Below are positions 26,638 through 37,758 of a DNA stretch of 64,000 nt, piece after piece. A model generated the notes under the pieces. It was not told where the DNA came from. It searched no databases and saw only the letters and a program-made list of their open reading frames with translations. A program made the translations under genes and the position numbers. The stretch covers positions 1 to 64,000 of the forward strand of contig NZ_CP115670.1 of NCBI RefSeq assembly GCF_027886475.1, written 5' to 3'. The number at the start of each line of letters is the position of its first letter. The first letter of the stretch is position 1. This stretch comes from Corynebacterium sp. SCR221107. Its GTDB lineage: Bacteria > Actinomycetota > Actinomycetes > Mycobacteriales > Mycobacteriaceae.

Positions 26638-27813
26638 CTATTTCCCATCTTCGTCCTCAAACAGAGTGGGGGGAGCGCTGAATTCAAGTGGGTGTCGAAT
26701 AGTCAGCCTGTTTGACTGCTTTAGAACACTTCCTTGAAAGTACACTTTGTCCGATGCTCGGAACCACCTGTAGAACTCATCAAGCCGCGCATTGTCAACA
26801 TCGTGGTGAACAACTTCAATGGTTGCACGACGACCTTCGCCCGGATTCTTTCCGCCGCGGTGTGCATCCATCACTGTGATTACAGATCCGTTGTCCTCTC
26901 GGATGATGCCCTTGATTATTCCATCGAGTGGCTCGGGCTCAGGCGCCGTCGGTTTGAAACGCTTGGATACTGACGTGAGAAGATCGCGCGCATCATTAGG
27001 AACAACGAATTCTGTAGGAAGGTTCTTGGCTTCTGGAGTGATTGAATGCGAAGGTGCCCATTGAAACTTTGCGTATGCATCGGAGCCGTCGGTTGGGATG
27101 AGGTCAGTTACGGCGGTCAGGAATTCTTTCGAAATACCAGATTCAACTAAGTCTCTGATGGCATCCCGACTCGTTGGCTCTTTATTCGGGTCAATGACTT
27201 TCTCAAACATTTTCTCGAATGCCAAGGCGACGGTTTGGGTTACCTTGCGGTATTCAGTCGGCACTACATGGGCTTGTCCACTCAGATCATGCGATGTCTG
27301 TGGATCTCCGACCTCAACGTAGACAGGTAGAACGTAAGACCCTTGTTCGGTGAAACCGGCTTGAATCTTATGGAAAAGCCTTTTCGATGAAGCCGGAAAA
27401 GCATCGCCAATTACTTCAGTAGGGCTCTGGCACGTGATTGAGGCTGCCCTGAAGATTCGACCAGTACCAGAAAACAGTCGGCTGACATCGCTTAGAGGGG
27501 CGGTAGATACTCCGAGGCTTTTTTCAAGATTGACATTGATCGCGAACCGTGAAATATCGACAGTCCTGAATTCGATTTCATTTCGGATGTCGAGTTCGGA
27601 CATTCTGAAATGGTCGCTTAGTCGCTTCAAAAGTCCAGAAACAGCAATTGGGTCGGTCTCAAAGTGCTGAGGAATACCTATGAGAGTTTCGAGTTGGGAA
27701 TCTTCCATCGGGCCCCAGAGCGCGCCCATTGGTCCCGTGGACTTTTCAGTCCAAGACTTCGAGGACAGCCAGGAGGTCAAACTTTCATTCGAGAGAAAAT
27801 GCTGATCAGTCAT
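26638..27813 (-). CDS. Unknown 391-residue protein coupled to a DUF4365 protein
   Basis: I do not recognise this family. The product is soluble, acidic and without signal or membrane segments. The N-terminal half has FSGTGRIFRAASITCQSPTEVIGDAFP and a beta-rich stretch SYVLPVYVEVGD. The last ~90 residues look like a small beta-barrel (GIIREDNGSVITVMDA, RRATIEVVHHDV, VYFQGSVLKQSNRLTI), perhaps OB-like. ATG 27813 is preferred over the longer frame to 27849: it overlaps the stop of the upstream gene by eight bases (ATGACTGA) and ACAGGAGACGGA lies ahead. The strict coupling to a nuclease-like DUF4365 gene in an island next to an integrase suggests a two-component defence cargo; this is inference. 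Confidence 0.75.
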   Translation of the reverse strand: MTDQHFLSNESLTSWLSSKSWTEKSTGPMGALWGPMEDSQLETLIGIPQHFETDPIAVSGLLKRLSDHFRMSELDIRNEIEFRTVDISRFAINVNLEKSLGVSTAPLSDVSRLFSGTGRIFRAASITCQSPTEVIGDAFPASSKRLFHKIQAGFTEQGSYVLPVYVEVGDPQTSHDLSGQAHVVPTEYRKVTQTVALAFEKMFEKVIDPNKEPTSRDAIRDLVESGISKEFLTAVTDLIPTDGSDAYAKFQWAPSHSITPEAKNLPTEFVVPNDARDLLTSVSKRFKPTAPEPEPLDGIIKGIIREDNGSVITVMDAHRGGKNPGEGRRATIEVVHHDVDNARLDEFYRWFRASDKVYFQGSVLKQSNRLTIRHPLEFSAPPTLFEDEDGK

Positions 27814-28333
27814 TTCCGTCTCCTGTTCCTGGTAGGCCGAAAGATTCAATCACGAGCGAGCGCCAGAGCGCAACCGAATTGGGTCCGATCGATTGATCTT
27901 TTGGAAAGTGAATGCGTCTCGCGGTCGTGCTTCCTGTGGCTAAGTGGTTTCGGGAAAAATCATCAACTCGAACCCAATGGGAGTCACATGTAAATAGAGT
28001 TCTGCTTTTCTCGAATTCTATCCACTTAGACCGTTCTTTTTCATGGATGACGGTGAGCACCAAGATGACAGGTATGCGAGATTGAGCCCACTTTTCCATC
28101 CACTCGTATTCGAGGTCGAACGCGTACATGCCTTTGGTTTGAATCGGCGATGCGGTTGACTTCAACTGAACCCGTAGGTCGGCCTCTGGAAAGGCAAAAG
28201 TGCAGTCTTTGGCGAGGTGATCTTGTCCGGGGCTAGTTAGCGACACCTCTACAGCGCTGTGCGCGGCAAGAGCGTATGCCAGCCCCTGACCGATTACCTC
28301 TTTACAGGCATCTTCAGACAAGACCGTGCCCAT
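27806..28333 (-). CDS. DUF4365-like protein, possible PD-(D/E)xK-type nuclease fold
   Basis: A 175-residue protein resembling DUF4365: an N-terminal helix (SEDACKEVIGQGLAYALA), an acidic residue before a strand (HLAKDCTFAFPEADLRVQLKST) giving a D...QLK core, then EYEWMEKWAQSRIPVILVLTVIHEKERSKWIEF, where DUF4365 proteins typically have a yl...P-vllV...W pattern. The D-x(n)-QxK core is what one expects of a restriction-endonuclease-like fold, so nucleic-acid binding or cutting is plausible. The start is ATG 28333, with GGGAGG seven bases upstream on the minus strand; a TTG at 28348 extends the frame but lies before that site. It is the first gene of a coupled pair. Confidence 0.6.
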   Translation of the reverse strand: MGTVLSEDACKEVIGQGLAYALAAHSAVEVSLTSPGQDHLAKDCTFAFPEADLRVQLKSTASPIQTKGMYAFDLEYEWMEKWAQSRIPVILVLTVIHEKERSKWIEFEKSRTLFTCDSHWVRVDDFSRNHLATGSTTARRIHFPKDQSIGPNSVALWRSLVIESFGLPGTGDGND

Positions 28334-28434: not shown

Positions 28435-29599
28435 TCACACTACTGCCATCGCCCCAATATCCGGCGCATCATCACCAACGTCGTTAGCCTCCGCCAACTG
28501 CTTGCGAGCCTCCTCTGCCGGCAATCCATCTCGCATCAAATCCAGCACATCGGCCACTTCATCCAAATCACCATCGAACAGCGACGCATACGTGTCCAAA
28601 ATCATCACAGCGGAGGCGTGCCCCAATTGCTTCTGCACGACCTTCACATTCGCGCCAGCCGACACCAAAAGCCCCGCCGCTACATGCCGCAACCCATGCG
28701 GGGTGATGCGCGCCGGGATGTCTCCGTTTGCCAGGCACTTTTCGACGGCAGCGGCAAACCATGTTTTGTGGCCGGGGGACCATGGGGCCGCCGTTTCGCC
28801 CAGGCCAGATTAAGACGTCGGGGTCAATGTCGGTGATGAGGTCGGCGAGCATGTTGCAGACGAAGGTAGGCCCGGCAACTGTGCGCTTTTCGTGTGTCTT
28901 TGGCTCGCCGTAGATGCGTTTGGAGTCGTCTCGAATCATTGCCCTCACGACCTTGATTCGACGCCGTTTGAGGTCGATATCGCGTGGCCGCAGGACGCAA
29001 AGTTCGCCCCATCGTAGTCCTGTGGTTGCGAGCACCCAGATGATCTCGGGGTATTTTGCGGCGCCCGCGAGCTTTGCCACCTGTTCGAGTGTGAGGAAGA
29101 CTTGGTCGGATTTCTTCCTCCTCGGTAGTCGCACGCCGCGGGCGGGGTTTGATGGGATGAGCCGGTCTTTGACACCGATTTCGAGGATCTGCGCGAGCAC
29201 ACTGTGACACCGCCTCACCGAGGACGCGGACATTTGTCCATCAAGGCTTGCGACCCATTGCTGGACTTGCGAGTGTCGGATCCGGCCGATCTCAAGATGT
29301 GACCAGGTGTCCTCGATGTGGGTGTGGTACGTGATGGTCATGAGATTTCGGGTGGAGATCTTCATGTGGGTTCGAGTGGCGAGCCATACTTCGCCGAGCT
29401 CGCCTACGGTGGTCTCGCCTAGGACTGGTTTGATGAAGGTGCCTTTGTTGACCTCTGACTCGACATCTGCGACGAATTCACGCGCCAATGCCTTTGTCCT
29501 AAACCCGCGTTTTTGTGAGGCGACACCATACTGGTCGACGTACTGGACTCGGTAGAGGGTGCCGTGTTTTTTCGTGGTGTACTCATGGATCGACGCCAT
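28435..29599 (-). pseudogene. Phage-type tyrosine integrase, frameshifted
   Basis: The frame from ATG 29599 encodes an N-terminal arm-binding AP2-like domain (YRVQYVDQYGVASQKRGFRTKALAREF), a SAM-like core-binding domain and the first catalytic Arg (TTGLRWGELCVL). It then runs into unrelated residues. The missing part (WFAAAVEKCLA, then ITPHGLRHVAAGLLVSAG with the H-x-x-R motif, and ILDTYASLF with the catalytic Tyr) is in another frame. One extra base in the run of five G at 28774-28778 explains the break; removing it restores 387 residues and reads MVPGHKTWF. Without that the enzyme lacks His, Arg and Tyr and is dead. A sequencing error in the homopolymer is possible. Confidence 0.85.
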
Positions 29600-29700: not shown

Positions 29701-30723
29701 CTATTGCTTATGCAGAGTTGTCACAGTTGCTAGACCTTCGTTCGTCAATTGATGATTTTTGATGTTGTTGGAAAGTAAGTCGATCGGGTTAATGTAGACG
29801 TTTTCAAGGAGAACGTCGACGGGTTCGGTGATGTTCCATCCGCGGCCTGCGATTTGCATTCGTAGGCTGCGGTAGCGTTTGTAGTCTATGAGTTCGAGTT
29901 CGTGGGCACGTCGGACGATTGCTTGGATGGAGTAGCCCCATTGAGCTTTGAGCTCGGCGTAGTCCTTTAGCGTGAGCTCTGGAGTAATTACAGGCTTGAG
30001 GAGAGCGCGTGGCATGAGGAAGCTGGCAGCGAAAATATCCGCCTCCTTTTCCATCTGGGATTTGTCGGAGCGGAGTGTGTTTGCGTGAAGTATCAGGTGG
30101 CCGAGTTCGTGTGCGAGACTGAATCGATAGCGGTCTCCACTTCGTTGTTGATTGAGCGCGATGATCCTCAAAGCCGAGTCGGTCGGCGTTGAAACTCCGT
30201 CAAAGTTGGTCCCTTCAACGACGTAGTCAGGCAGTGAGGTAACGAGGATTCCGTGGTCGTTCAACACTGTGGTGAGGTTTGGGATCATTGAATCTTGATC
30301 AATCCCAAAGTGATCCCGAGCTCGAGAGGCGAATTCTTCCAGCATGCGGAGGCTGAGGTCGCCTTCGAGATCAGCTTTCGGAATCGTGGGAAGGTCTGAC
30401 GTTACCTCGGGGTACTGTCGGCGGAGATAATGCTCAGTGATGGAAAAAGCTGTAGCTATCTTGTCTGCGTCTGCGCGGCCTTCGCGTGCTGAGCGGAAGA
30501 GTAGATCGGGTGCTGCGTAGAAGTGGATGGGTTCATCGAAATATTCGGCGCTGACTCCGGTTTGAAACCGCGCGGTGTTGATGAGCTTTGTGCTGGGGGG
30601 TCGGTTTTGTCGCTCGACGCTGCTTAAGGTGGATTGGGCGACGCCTAGTTGCTCGGCGAATTCCCCCTGGGATCGTCCGAGGAGCAATCGTAGGTGTTTC
30701 AGGTTCGAGCTGGGGGTTGGCAT
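29701..30723 (-). CDS. XRE regulator fused to an ImmA/IrrE metallopeptidase
   Basis: A 340-residue two-domain protein. Residues ~8-60 are an XRE helix-turn-helix (LRLLLGRSQGEFAEQLGVAQSTLSSVERQ). The ImmA/IrrE peptidase domain has the zinc motif HELGH (RFSLAHELGHLILH) followed by EKEADIFAASFLMP. Such proteins cleave or sense repressors and govern induction of mobile elements or toxin-antitoxin pairs. The upstream gene (30735-31298) ends 11 bases before its start, so they form an operon, probably autoregulated at the inverted repeat at 31313-31372. Confidence 0.88.
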   Translation of the reverse strand: MPTPSSNLKHLRLLLGRSQGEFAEQLGVAQSTLSSVERQNRPPSTKLINTARFQTGVSAEYFDEPIHFYAAPDLLFRSAREGRADADKIATAFSITEHYLRRQYPEVTSDLPTIPKADLEGDLSLRMLEEFASRARDHFGIDQDSMIPNLTTVLNDHGILVTSLPDYVVEGTNFDGVSTPTDSALRIIALNQQRSGDRYRFSLAHELGHLILHANTLRSDKSQMEKEADIFAASFLMPRALLKPVITPELTLKDYAELKAQWGYSIQAIVRRAHELELIDYKRYRSLRMQIAGRGWNITEPVDVLLENVYINPIDLLSNNIKNHQLTNEGLATVTTLHKQ

Positions 30724-32817: not shown

Positions 32818-33066
32818 ATGCCAAATGAACTAAGGTTCAGATCGGAGGCAGTGGCGATTGAGGTTCGAGCCGAACTCGCCAGGCAAGAAAAAACCATTAA
32901 TCAGGTCGCAGATTACGTCGGAATGCCGGTTTCGACCATGCGGCGCAGCGTCAAAGGGCAGCGACCATTCACGATCGACGAGCTTGGAGCAATCTCCGAG
33001 TTTCTGGGAATTGGAATTGTCCAGCTCTTGAAACGTTCCGATAGAGCGCCAGGCACCGCCGCCTAG
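32818..33066 (+). CDS. Cro-like XRE regulator
   Basis: An 82-residue helix-turn-helix protein: QEKTINQVADYVGMPVSTMRRSVKGQRPFTIDELGAISEFLGI. It would compete with the 32764 repressor for the 53-base divergent region. ATG 32818 is likelier than GTG 32794, which lies inside that promoter region. Its stop TAG overlaps the first copy of the island's spacer repeat, and the next gene starts 35 bases on. Confidence 0.8.
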   Translation: MPNELRFRSEAVAIEVRAELARQEKTINQVADYVGMPVSTMRRSVKGQRPFTIDELGAISEFLGIGIVQLLKRSDRAPGTAA

Positions 33067-33090
33067 GGTGTCGACAAGCAAACAGGAAGG
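33064..33090 (+). repeat. Gene-spacer repeat, copy 1
   Basis: A 27-base sequence beginning with the stop TAG of the upstream gene, then GGGTGTCGACAAGCAAACAG and GAAGG, which is the ribosome binding site of the next gene. Copies 2 and 3 are at 34030 and 34270. Confidence 0.75.
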
Positions 33091-33101
33091 AGGAACAGGT
33101 C

Positions 33102-33990: not shown

Positions 33991-34032
33991 GCACACGAAC
34001 TGAAGAAGCGATTCCAGCCCGCAGCGGCGTAG
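33991..34032 (+). pseudogene. 3' remnant of the split early gene
   Basis: This short frame reads AHELKKRFQPAAA and ends in a TAG that forms the start of spacer-repeat copy 2, exactly as the upstream Cro gene's TAG does in copy 1. It follows an in-frame TAA and cannot be translated alone. Confidence 0.45.
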
Positions 34033-34056
34033 GGCGTCGAAAAGCAAGCAGGAAGG
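34030..34056 (+). repeat. Gene-spacer repeat, copy 2
   Basis: TAGGGCGTCGAAAAGCAAGC followed by AGGAAGG; differs from copy 1 at three positions. It provides the ribosome binding site for ATG 34066. Confidence 0.75.
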
Positions 34057-34065
34057 TAAATCATC

Positions 34066-34338
34066 ATGGCGAACGAAATGACGGCCGACATTGATCTCAA
34101 CCGGCTGGCTCTAGAGATCGACGGCTTGGCCGACGAGGTATGCCGCCTGCTCGCAGAGGAGGATCGCGACCTCACGTGGATCGATCAGCTTGTCGCTCAG
34201 CGCCAGGCGCTCATCGCAAAGCGAGAAGCCTATATCAGTGAACTGCTCGCATCTTCGGGCGCCACGGCCCAGGGCGTCGAAAAGCAAACAGGAAAGAGAC
34301 AACCATGGACAAATTGGCCGAAGCCAAACTGTGACTAG
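34066..34338 (+). CDS. Small helical early protein with extended C-terminus
   Basis: A 90-residue protein, helical and charged (LALEIDGLADEVCRLLAEED, WIDQLVAQRQALIAKREAYI), with no known family. By comparison with spacer copies 1 and 2 its stop should have been the TAG at 34270-34272. Here it reads CAG, so translation runs through the spacer repeat (GVEKQTGKRQP) and ends 22 residues later, overlapping the next gene. The added tail is therefore accidental in origin. Confidence 0.65.
   Translation: MANEMTADIDLNRLALEIDGLADEVCRLLAEEDRDLTWIDQLVAQRQALIAKREAYISELLASSGATAQGVEKQTGKRQPWTNWPKPNCD
34270..34296 (+). repeat. Gene-spacer repeat, copy 3 (stop codon changed to CAG)
   Basis: CAGGGCGTCGAAAAGCAAAC followed by AGGAAAG. 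The first base differs from copies 1 and 2, which turns the upstream gene's TAG into CAG. Confidence 0.75.
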
Positions 34339-37678: not shown

Positions 37679-37751
37679 GGGGCATTAGCTCAATTGGTAG
37701 AGCATCTGCTTTGCAAGCAGAAGGTCAGGAGTTCGATTCTCCTATGCTCCA
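37679..37751 (+). tRNA. tRNA-Ala (TGC), copy 2
   Basis: Identical over all 73 bases to 22704-22776; flanks differ. It marks the end of the mobile island. No tRNA 3' fragment was found at the island's left side, so insertion into this gene is not proven. Confidence 0.97.
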
Positions 37752-37758
37752 CAGGTCA

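Follow-up and report, generated by a model that had tools for sequence, protein, structure and literature searches.

A nuclease-like DUF4365 gene and its partner in a Corynebacterium prophage remnant: a divergent PDC-M02 pair with relatives beside thrS

The window analyzed here is a single stretch of 64,000 nucleotides from Corynebacterium sp. SCR221107. It carries two coupled genes, designated A and B, whose coordinates are collected in Table 1 together with those of their predicted functional elements and of the neighboring integrase. Both reading frames and the overlap between them were confirmed from the sequence as initially annotated. The two genes had also been taken to share one ribosome-binding context, but B does more than use that of A, since it is preceded by its own AGGAG. 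Several of the relatives found beside thrS (described below) overlap by 4 bases at ATGA, as judged from the ends of tblastn alignments.

Table 1. Coordinates of the A-B pair, its predicted elements and the adjoining integrase in the window
Feature	Position	Strand	Description
Gene A (PDC-M02A)	27806-28333	-	175 aa; ATG at 28333, TGA at 27806; DUF4365 (DREN-type PD-(D/E)XK) nuclease-like protein
Gene B (PDC-M02B)	26638-27813	-	391 aa; ATG at 27813; partner of A, no Pfam family
Overlap of A end and B start	27806-27813	-	8 bases, from sequence
Shine-Dalgarno AGGAG of B	27820-27824	-	Within 3' part of A, six bases ahead of the ATG of B; from sequence
Predicted active site of A	28160-28207	-	Codons D43 28205-28207, Q56 28166-28168, K58 28160-28162
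B signature G-x-T-x-x-G-S	27337-27357	-	Residues 153-159; alignment of 29 loci
Predicted OB-fold-like barrel of B	26695-26934	-	Residues 294-373; AlphaFold2 model
Tyrosine integrase, in two frames	28435-29599	-	phrog_1 positions 116-396 in ORF 28568-29599, 398-457 in ORF 28435-28692

The A protein matches Pfam DUF4365 (PF14280) with an E-value of 1.4e-10 and 41.8 bits, above the curated cut-off of 24.3 bits, and the match stops at residue 159 of 175. The D...QLK core and PVILV pattern that had suggested this family are both present, with D43, Q56 and K58 in the D...Q-x-K arrangement that is catalytic in DUF4365/DREN nucleases. In PMC12205087 DUF4365 is equated with DREN, a nuclease of the PD-(D/E)XK type that acts as the SPARDA effector and whose catalytic residues are D41/Q60/K62, and PMC10810196 describes degradation of DNA upon activation of a DUF4365-APAZ/Ago complex. 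When 29 A proteins were aligned, the one from the window included, D43 and Q56 were found in all 29 and K58 in 27 as aligned. The two loci scored as lacking the lysine (L044 and L048) are those in which the aligner set Q56/K58 on QIA although QVK comes after it. Note that several A sequences in this alignment are stop-to-stop translations, which may include extra N-terminal residues. A profile built from 17 A proteins was compared with 177,635 distinct PDB sequences, and its top two matches were the DUF4365/DREN entries 9qbq (E 0.0019) and 9jsb (E 0.017); these E-values are weak taken alone, and the catalytic motif is in register in both. The single A protein of the window, used as query against the PDB sequences, found neither entry. 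On the basis of family and motif, A is likely to be a small DUF4365/DREN-type member of the PD-(D/E)XK nucleases.

The B protein had been described as belonging to no recognizable family. This holds for Pfam, NCBIfam and PHROGs, in which no match was found at E ≤ 1, but not for PADLOC-DB, whose PDC-M02B models do match B. Twelve members of the B family gave four single weak matches in Pfam and no clue to the fold, and B profiles compared with PDB sequences gave chance-level matches or none. A strongly conserved stretch is evident in the alignment of 29 loci, where G153 is found in 27, T155 in 26, G158 in 29 and S159 in 27. An AlphaFold2 model of B (m25618d9a3aba; built with five sequences) has a mean pLDDT of 66.9 and a pTM of 0.48, with residues 116-157 and 169-184 below pLDDT 50. 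The C-terminal region, for which a small beta-barrel had been proposed, is modeled as three strands followed by a helix and a series of short strands, which is near the order of an OB-fold. Block pLDDT values in this region are 61-85, with one block at 47. The model thus supports, at modest confidence and short of proof, an OB-like barrel at the C-terminus of B.

When compared with PADLOC-DB, A matches PDC-M02A (E 8.8e-12; 14 PDC-M02A models at E ≤ 1) and B matches PDC-M02B (E 4.9e-29; 15 models at E ≤ 1). The two genes are adjacent on one strand with an 8-base overlap, which fits PDC-M02 if adjacency is assumed to be PADLOC's rule. The initial annotation proposed a new defence module, but the pair has been in PADLOC-DB 2.0.0 (2023) as PDC-M02A/PDC-M02B. 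Rather than a new kind, the window pair represents a divergent member of an already catalogued phage-defence candidate.

An integrase gene does adjoin the pair, as had been reported, though it is split into two frames that break at about 28.7 kb, next to A. Because of this split the element looks defective and has probably lost the ability to excise on its own, although the split may instead stem from a sequencing error. The split integrase upstream of A is followed by repressor-type genes and, judging by eye, by a few further phage-like genes; a sucD-like gene (also by eye) lies 3' of B on the opposite strand. The prophage remnant extends from about 26.6 to 37.7 kb with few structural genes (also by eye) and ends near a tRNA-Ala gene (37679-37752). 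A search for direct repeats of at least 18 bases that would connect the two ends of the remnant found none. Overall, the element resembles a decayed Corynebacterium prophage whose two-gene cargo, A-B, is intact. Within the remnant, a 41-base repeat is present in three copies (33052-33092, 34018-34058 and 34258-34298) with 73-100% identity to the reference copy. A gene encoding an HTH domain and an M78 peptidase (29701-30723, minus strand) matches PADLOC RmrA models (E 2.1e-57) and the transcriptional regulator PHROG 2439 (E 4.9e-79), and the neighboring ORF 30735-31298 matches phrog_32170 (E 1.1e-120).

Homologous pairs were then compared across several sets of loci. B was found in 5 of 242 Corynebacterium genomes, with A directly 5' of it in all five. 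DUF4365 was detected in nine of the same 242 genomes: five of these ORFs are short (175-251 aa) and are exactly those with an adjacent B, and the remaining four are longer (310-950 aa, one of them under the cut-off) and have no B in the region examined. In C. kefirresidentii (L009) the pair lies between phage-type regulator genes and an integrase, and in an IMG/VR prophage contig (L059) A is directly 5' of B in the same type of setting (both settings judged by eye). A and B are adjacent in ten of 11 accessory actinobacterial loci (L044-L054); at the eleventh, L052, which is at a contig edge, the profile finds A and not B. A further locus taken as accessory (L056, from genome G680) has neither gene. 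Of 15 plasmid records that matched, 12 were opened, leaving out three near-duplicates (H10, H15 and H17), and A is directly before B in 11 of them. On a Pigmentibacter plasmid (L095:5633-7095) B is intact and a transposase fragment, as judged by eye, occupies the place where A would be. The plasmid copies were found with other B proteins as queries; the window B itself gave no match at E ≤ 0.01 in tblastn searches of phage and plasmid records, and a scan of viral records with query A7 found nothing. Plasmid homologs in four phyla, those of Gluconobacter albidus (L097) and Phaeobacter inhibens (L099) among them, rule out that the pair is unique to the island in the window.

The distances among A proteins and among B proteins of 29 loci are correlated (r 0.85, Spearman 0.64; best of 2000 permutations 0.24). 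As a converse comparison, 14 extra DUF4365 loci were inspected, and none of them has a strong A-profile match without B. Ten of these came from Streptomyces-like genomes: the two strong matches (L122 and L123) have B, and three weak matches and five non-matching loci lack it. Weak A-profile matches without B (L119, L120, L121 and L124; E 6e-5 to 2e-3) do exist, so the border of the A subfamily is not sharp. Co-occurrence elsewhere, on which the initial proposal had been staked, was found in 5/5 Corynebacterium, 10/11 accessory, 11/12 plasmid and 49/50 thrS-linked loci. The pairing is beyond chance. It is also supported that A belongs to a nuclease family and is tied to a partner of its own, with the pair recurring in prophages, plasmids and some defence islands.

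Near-constant pairing and a tight overlap would also be expected of a toxin-antitoxin-like addiction module in which A is a nuclease toxin and B an antitoxin, the pair being retained since loss of B kills. Such a module could explain why B persists without A (beside the transposase fragment in L095, and alone in L060 and L061) and why no strong A-profile match among the 14 extra DUF4365 loci lacks B. However, B is large and is the second gene, and the weak A-profile matches do lack it. We consider an addiction module quite improbable, and the losses beside thrS described below bear on it as well.

Neighboring genes were inspected, and chosen ones compared with PADLOC, for 28 loci that are not linked to thrS, namely the window, L009, L010, L011, L055 and L059; the accessory loci L044-L051, L053 and L054; and the plasmid loci L094-L105. 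Defence-gene neighbors were found at ten of the 28 (by group 3/6, 4/10 and 3/12). This count is a lower bound, since it covers 29 chosen neighbors plus three from the window, and it leaves out weaker or partial matches (helicases in L098 and L105, and the window regulator matching RmrA). The matches beside the pair are drmD and drmMI (L044), drmA and drmB (L047), drmD (L048 and L053), type III restriction-modification genes (L011 and L055), a Fic protein (L010), DruH3 (L103), Cas3e (L104) and AbiD (L096). Among the same chosen neighbors, no defence gene was confirmed by PADLOC at 6/10 accessory actinobacterial and 9/12 plasmid loci. Integrase or phage-like genes adjoin the pair in the window and, by eye, in L009 and L059.

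The presence of type III restriction-modification and DISARM genes beside some mobile copies is compatible with a restriction-like system, in which B would be a DNA-reading subunit that guides A to particular (e.g., modified) sequences, so that invading DNA is cut directly and no cell killing takes place. The architecture is compatible with it too, as a small protein of the PD-(D/E)XK family is combined with a larger one whose C-terminus is modeled as OB-like. The pair includes no methyltransferase, however, neither a methylase nor a recognition domain was detected in B with Pfam, NCBIfam or PHROGs, and the B profiles gave at best chance-level matches in the PDB. A restriction-like system is therefore unlikely in our estimate, though not negligibly so.

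A second chromosomal setting was reached via two distant relatives of the pair and lies in a family that is termed Streptomyces-like here, a label inferred from kinship. B was found in 69 of 120 relatives of one Streptomyces-like genome and, at no less than 52% identity, in 63 of the 73 listed members of its genus, a few of them partial (by row count). B of either type is present in 165 of 249 genomes and 11 of 17 genera of the family. The position relative to thrS was checked in 50 loci, comprising the 30 best matches of the 120-relative search and 20 chosen from the 249-genome search. The order A-B-thrS is seen in the former, A being missing only at one contig end, and in 20/20 of the latter, which come from ten other genera. 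Overall, B is directly before thrS in 50/50 loci from 11 genera and A is before B in 49. The A-B-thrS blocks are at L058:7786-11673 and in L012-L041 and L062-L081.

B is one open frame in all 50 loci and A in 48; A of L069 is in two frames and A of L030 runs off the contig end. The two Asp, the Gln and the Lys of the active site are kept in 48, 49, 48 and 48 of 49 thrS-linked A proteins, respectively. Within the 30 best loci, the median dN/dS of A is 0.14 over 406 pairs; over 435 pairs each, it is 0.27 for B and 0.22 for ThrS residues 1-321. These values were calculated by the simple Nei-Gojobori method with no pair dropped among loci having the gene. Distances among A and among B proteins track those of ThrS (r 0.71 and 0.79; best of 1000 permutations 0.35 and 0.24).

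In twelve genomes without an intact B (11 unmatched plus G680), the 1.5 kb before thrS is without the pair. In G680 a B-like remnant is present before thrS (L137:1000-1095; 32 residues, 53% identity, E 1.2e-4), which points to secondary loss and shows that the pair is not always retained. That both genes are gone at 12 thrS loci, one with a B remnant, indicates that loss is tolerated, which argues against the addiction module, although the order of loss cannot be told. The only two thrS-linked rows in our tree group with copies not linked to thrS (98/99) under a midpoint root, with one long-branched row in that group. This looks as if the thrS-linked copy had been domesticated, a direction that a midpoint root does not prove.

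Since the pair recurs beside thrS across the Streptomyces-like family, it is unlikely to serve as defence cargo alone, and the thrS-linked copies suggest that one branch or more uses it for a cellular function. A rival reading makes A-B a housekeeping nuclease pair, with a part in the quality control, repair or processing of nucleic acids, which mobile elements also pick up and for which defence is secondary or absent. The near-invariant position, the intact frames, the breadth across the family, the low dN/dS of A with its active site kept and the agreement with ThrS distances are what such a pair would show. Against it, the pair is missing from about one third of the sampled family genomes, with a remnant in one. 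It is sparse elsewhere, as in Corynebacterium, and occurs in prophages, plasmids and some defence islands, and the tree places the two thrS-linked rows among non-thrS copies. A housekeeping pair is decidedly improbable in our estimate.

Note that the “defence candidate” label also falls on the Streptomyces-like chromosomal copy. Models used for counting defence systems also match a gene pair that is carried by roughly two thirds of the genomes sampled from one family and that occupies the same position at each locus of this type that was checked. Either defence counts in Streptomyces-like genomes may be inflated by one, or the family has inherited an immune nuclease beside a tRNA synthetase. 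The thrS-linked result matters more than the window pair, which is itself one more divergent member of the candidate.

Observed directly are the two genes and their coupling, the conservation of the active site, the co-inheritance of A and B and their mobile, partly defence-rich contexts; the earlier model of a nuclease plus a sensor remains a reasonable reading of them. We put at slightly better than even the chance that A-B is a PDC-M02 unit in which B binds and restrains the nuclease A, reads a trigger and unleashes A, and which in the window is the cargo of a decayed prophage. In this mechanism B would be an obligate partner that binds A and holds it inactive, the complex and the inhibition being inferred along with the nuclease activity of A. 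Acting as a putative sensor, B would detect a trigger via its conserved core and the C-terminal OB-like barrel, the simplest trigger being phage nucleic acid or nucleoprotein. A might then be freed or assembled and would degrade nucleic acid, that of the invader alone or all that is in the cell. Protection from phage would follow, presumably by clearing of phage DNA or by cell death. The occurrence of the pair beside thrS in many genomes, which is unlike most defence genes, speaks against a model of defence alone. The loci at which no defence neighbor was confirmed and the two phage contigs that have B and no A weigh against the model as well.

Two near-identical IMG/VR contigs, representing one lineage, carry B without A (L060:1426-2430 and L061:955-1959). 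Their B is an open frame of 335 codons that ends inside the barrel region; by eye, a pentapeptide-repeat gene precedes it and an ERF-type recombination gene lies further downstream. On the plain reading this solo phage B is a relic, and on the boldest it is a decoy. In a wider scheme built on the latter, PDC-M02 would be a nuclease-sensor unit domesticated by one family, in whose Streptomycetaceae-like genomes it would stand guard permanently next to thrS with its nuclease active and under constraint. Phages would counter mobile versions with a truncated solo B (that of L060/L061, which lacks the C-terminal barrel) that captures A without firing. Under this scheme the barrel would serve as the trigger domain of B, and inhibition would fall to the remainder of the protein. 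We offer this scheme as a speculation that is distinctly unlikely to hold in full. Three features give experimental access to the restraint and release of the nuclease, namely that the pairing is constant, that the active site is conserved and that a phage has a truncated solo B.

Published work on the pair was sought as well. A full-text literature search, outside of which most subscription journals lay, found no mention of “PDC-M02”, and no anti-phage assay of PDC-M02 was found in the literature searched. Searches on DUF4365, on PADLOC phage defence candidates and on PADLOC with Streptomyces returned nothing on the pair, judging mostly by listings. The word PDC is absent from the PADLOC web-server paper, and one paper on PADLOC phage defence candidates names other PDC sets in its available part. 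Relative to the catalogued PDC-M02 set, nothing differs in membership as tested, and the window B is 37-39% identical to its nearest relative. That set is itself a candidate only, and its PDC-M02B models also match the thrS-linked B (E 3.9e-184).

DISARM differs in that its gene set is not known to include A-B, and no drm gene was detected in the vicinity of the window pair. Elsewhere, A-B is directly before drmD on the same strand at two loci (L044:7578-12630 and L048:4978-10069) and near drm genes at two more (L047 and L053); certain DISARM loci may include it as an accessory component.

SPARDA is a further close comparison for A. D41/Q60/K62 of its nuclease DREN, as given in the available text of the source, correspond to D43/Q56/K58 of A, and the two belong to the same nuclease family. 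This kinship would be accounted for by a degenerate or unrecognized Argonaute-like system, with B in place of the short pAgo and APAZ and loading a guide as SPARDA does. A has only 175 residues and a DUF4365 match that ends at 159, leaving no room for APAZ, and no MID, PIWI or APAZ match was found in B with Pfam or PADLOC at E ≤ 1, nor any Argonaute among its PDB profile matches. An Argonaute-like system is extremely improbable on these grounds, and A and B were rejected as SPARDA parts. SPARDA has APAZ fused to DUF4365 plus a short pAgo (MID-PIWI), whereas A is without APAZ and B is not a recognizable pAgo; the trigger of the A-B unit must therefore differ from that of SPARDA.
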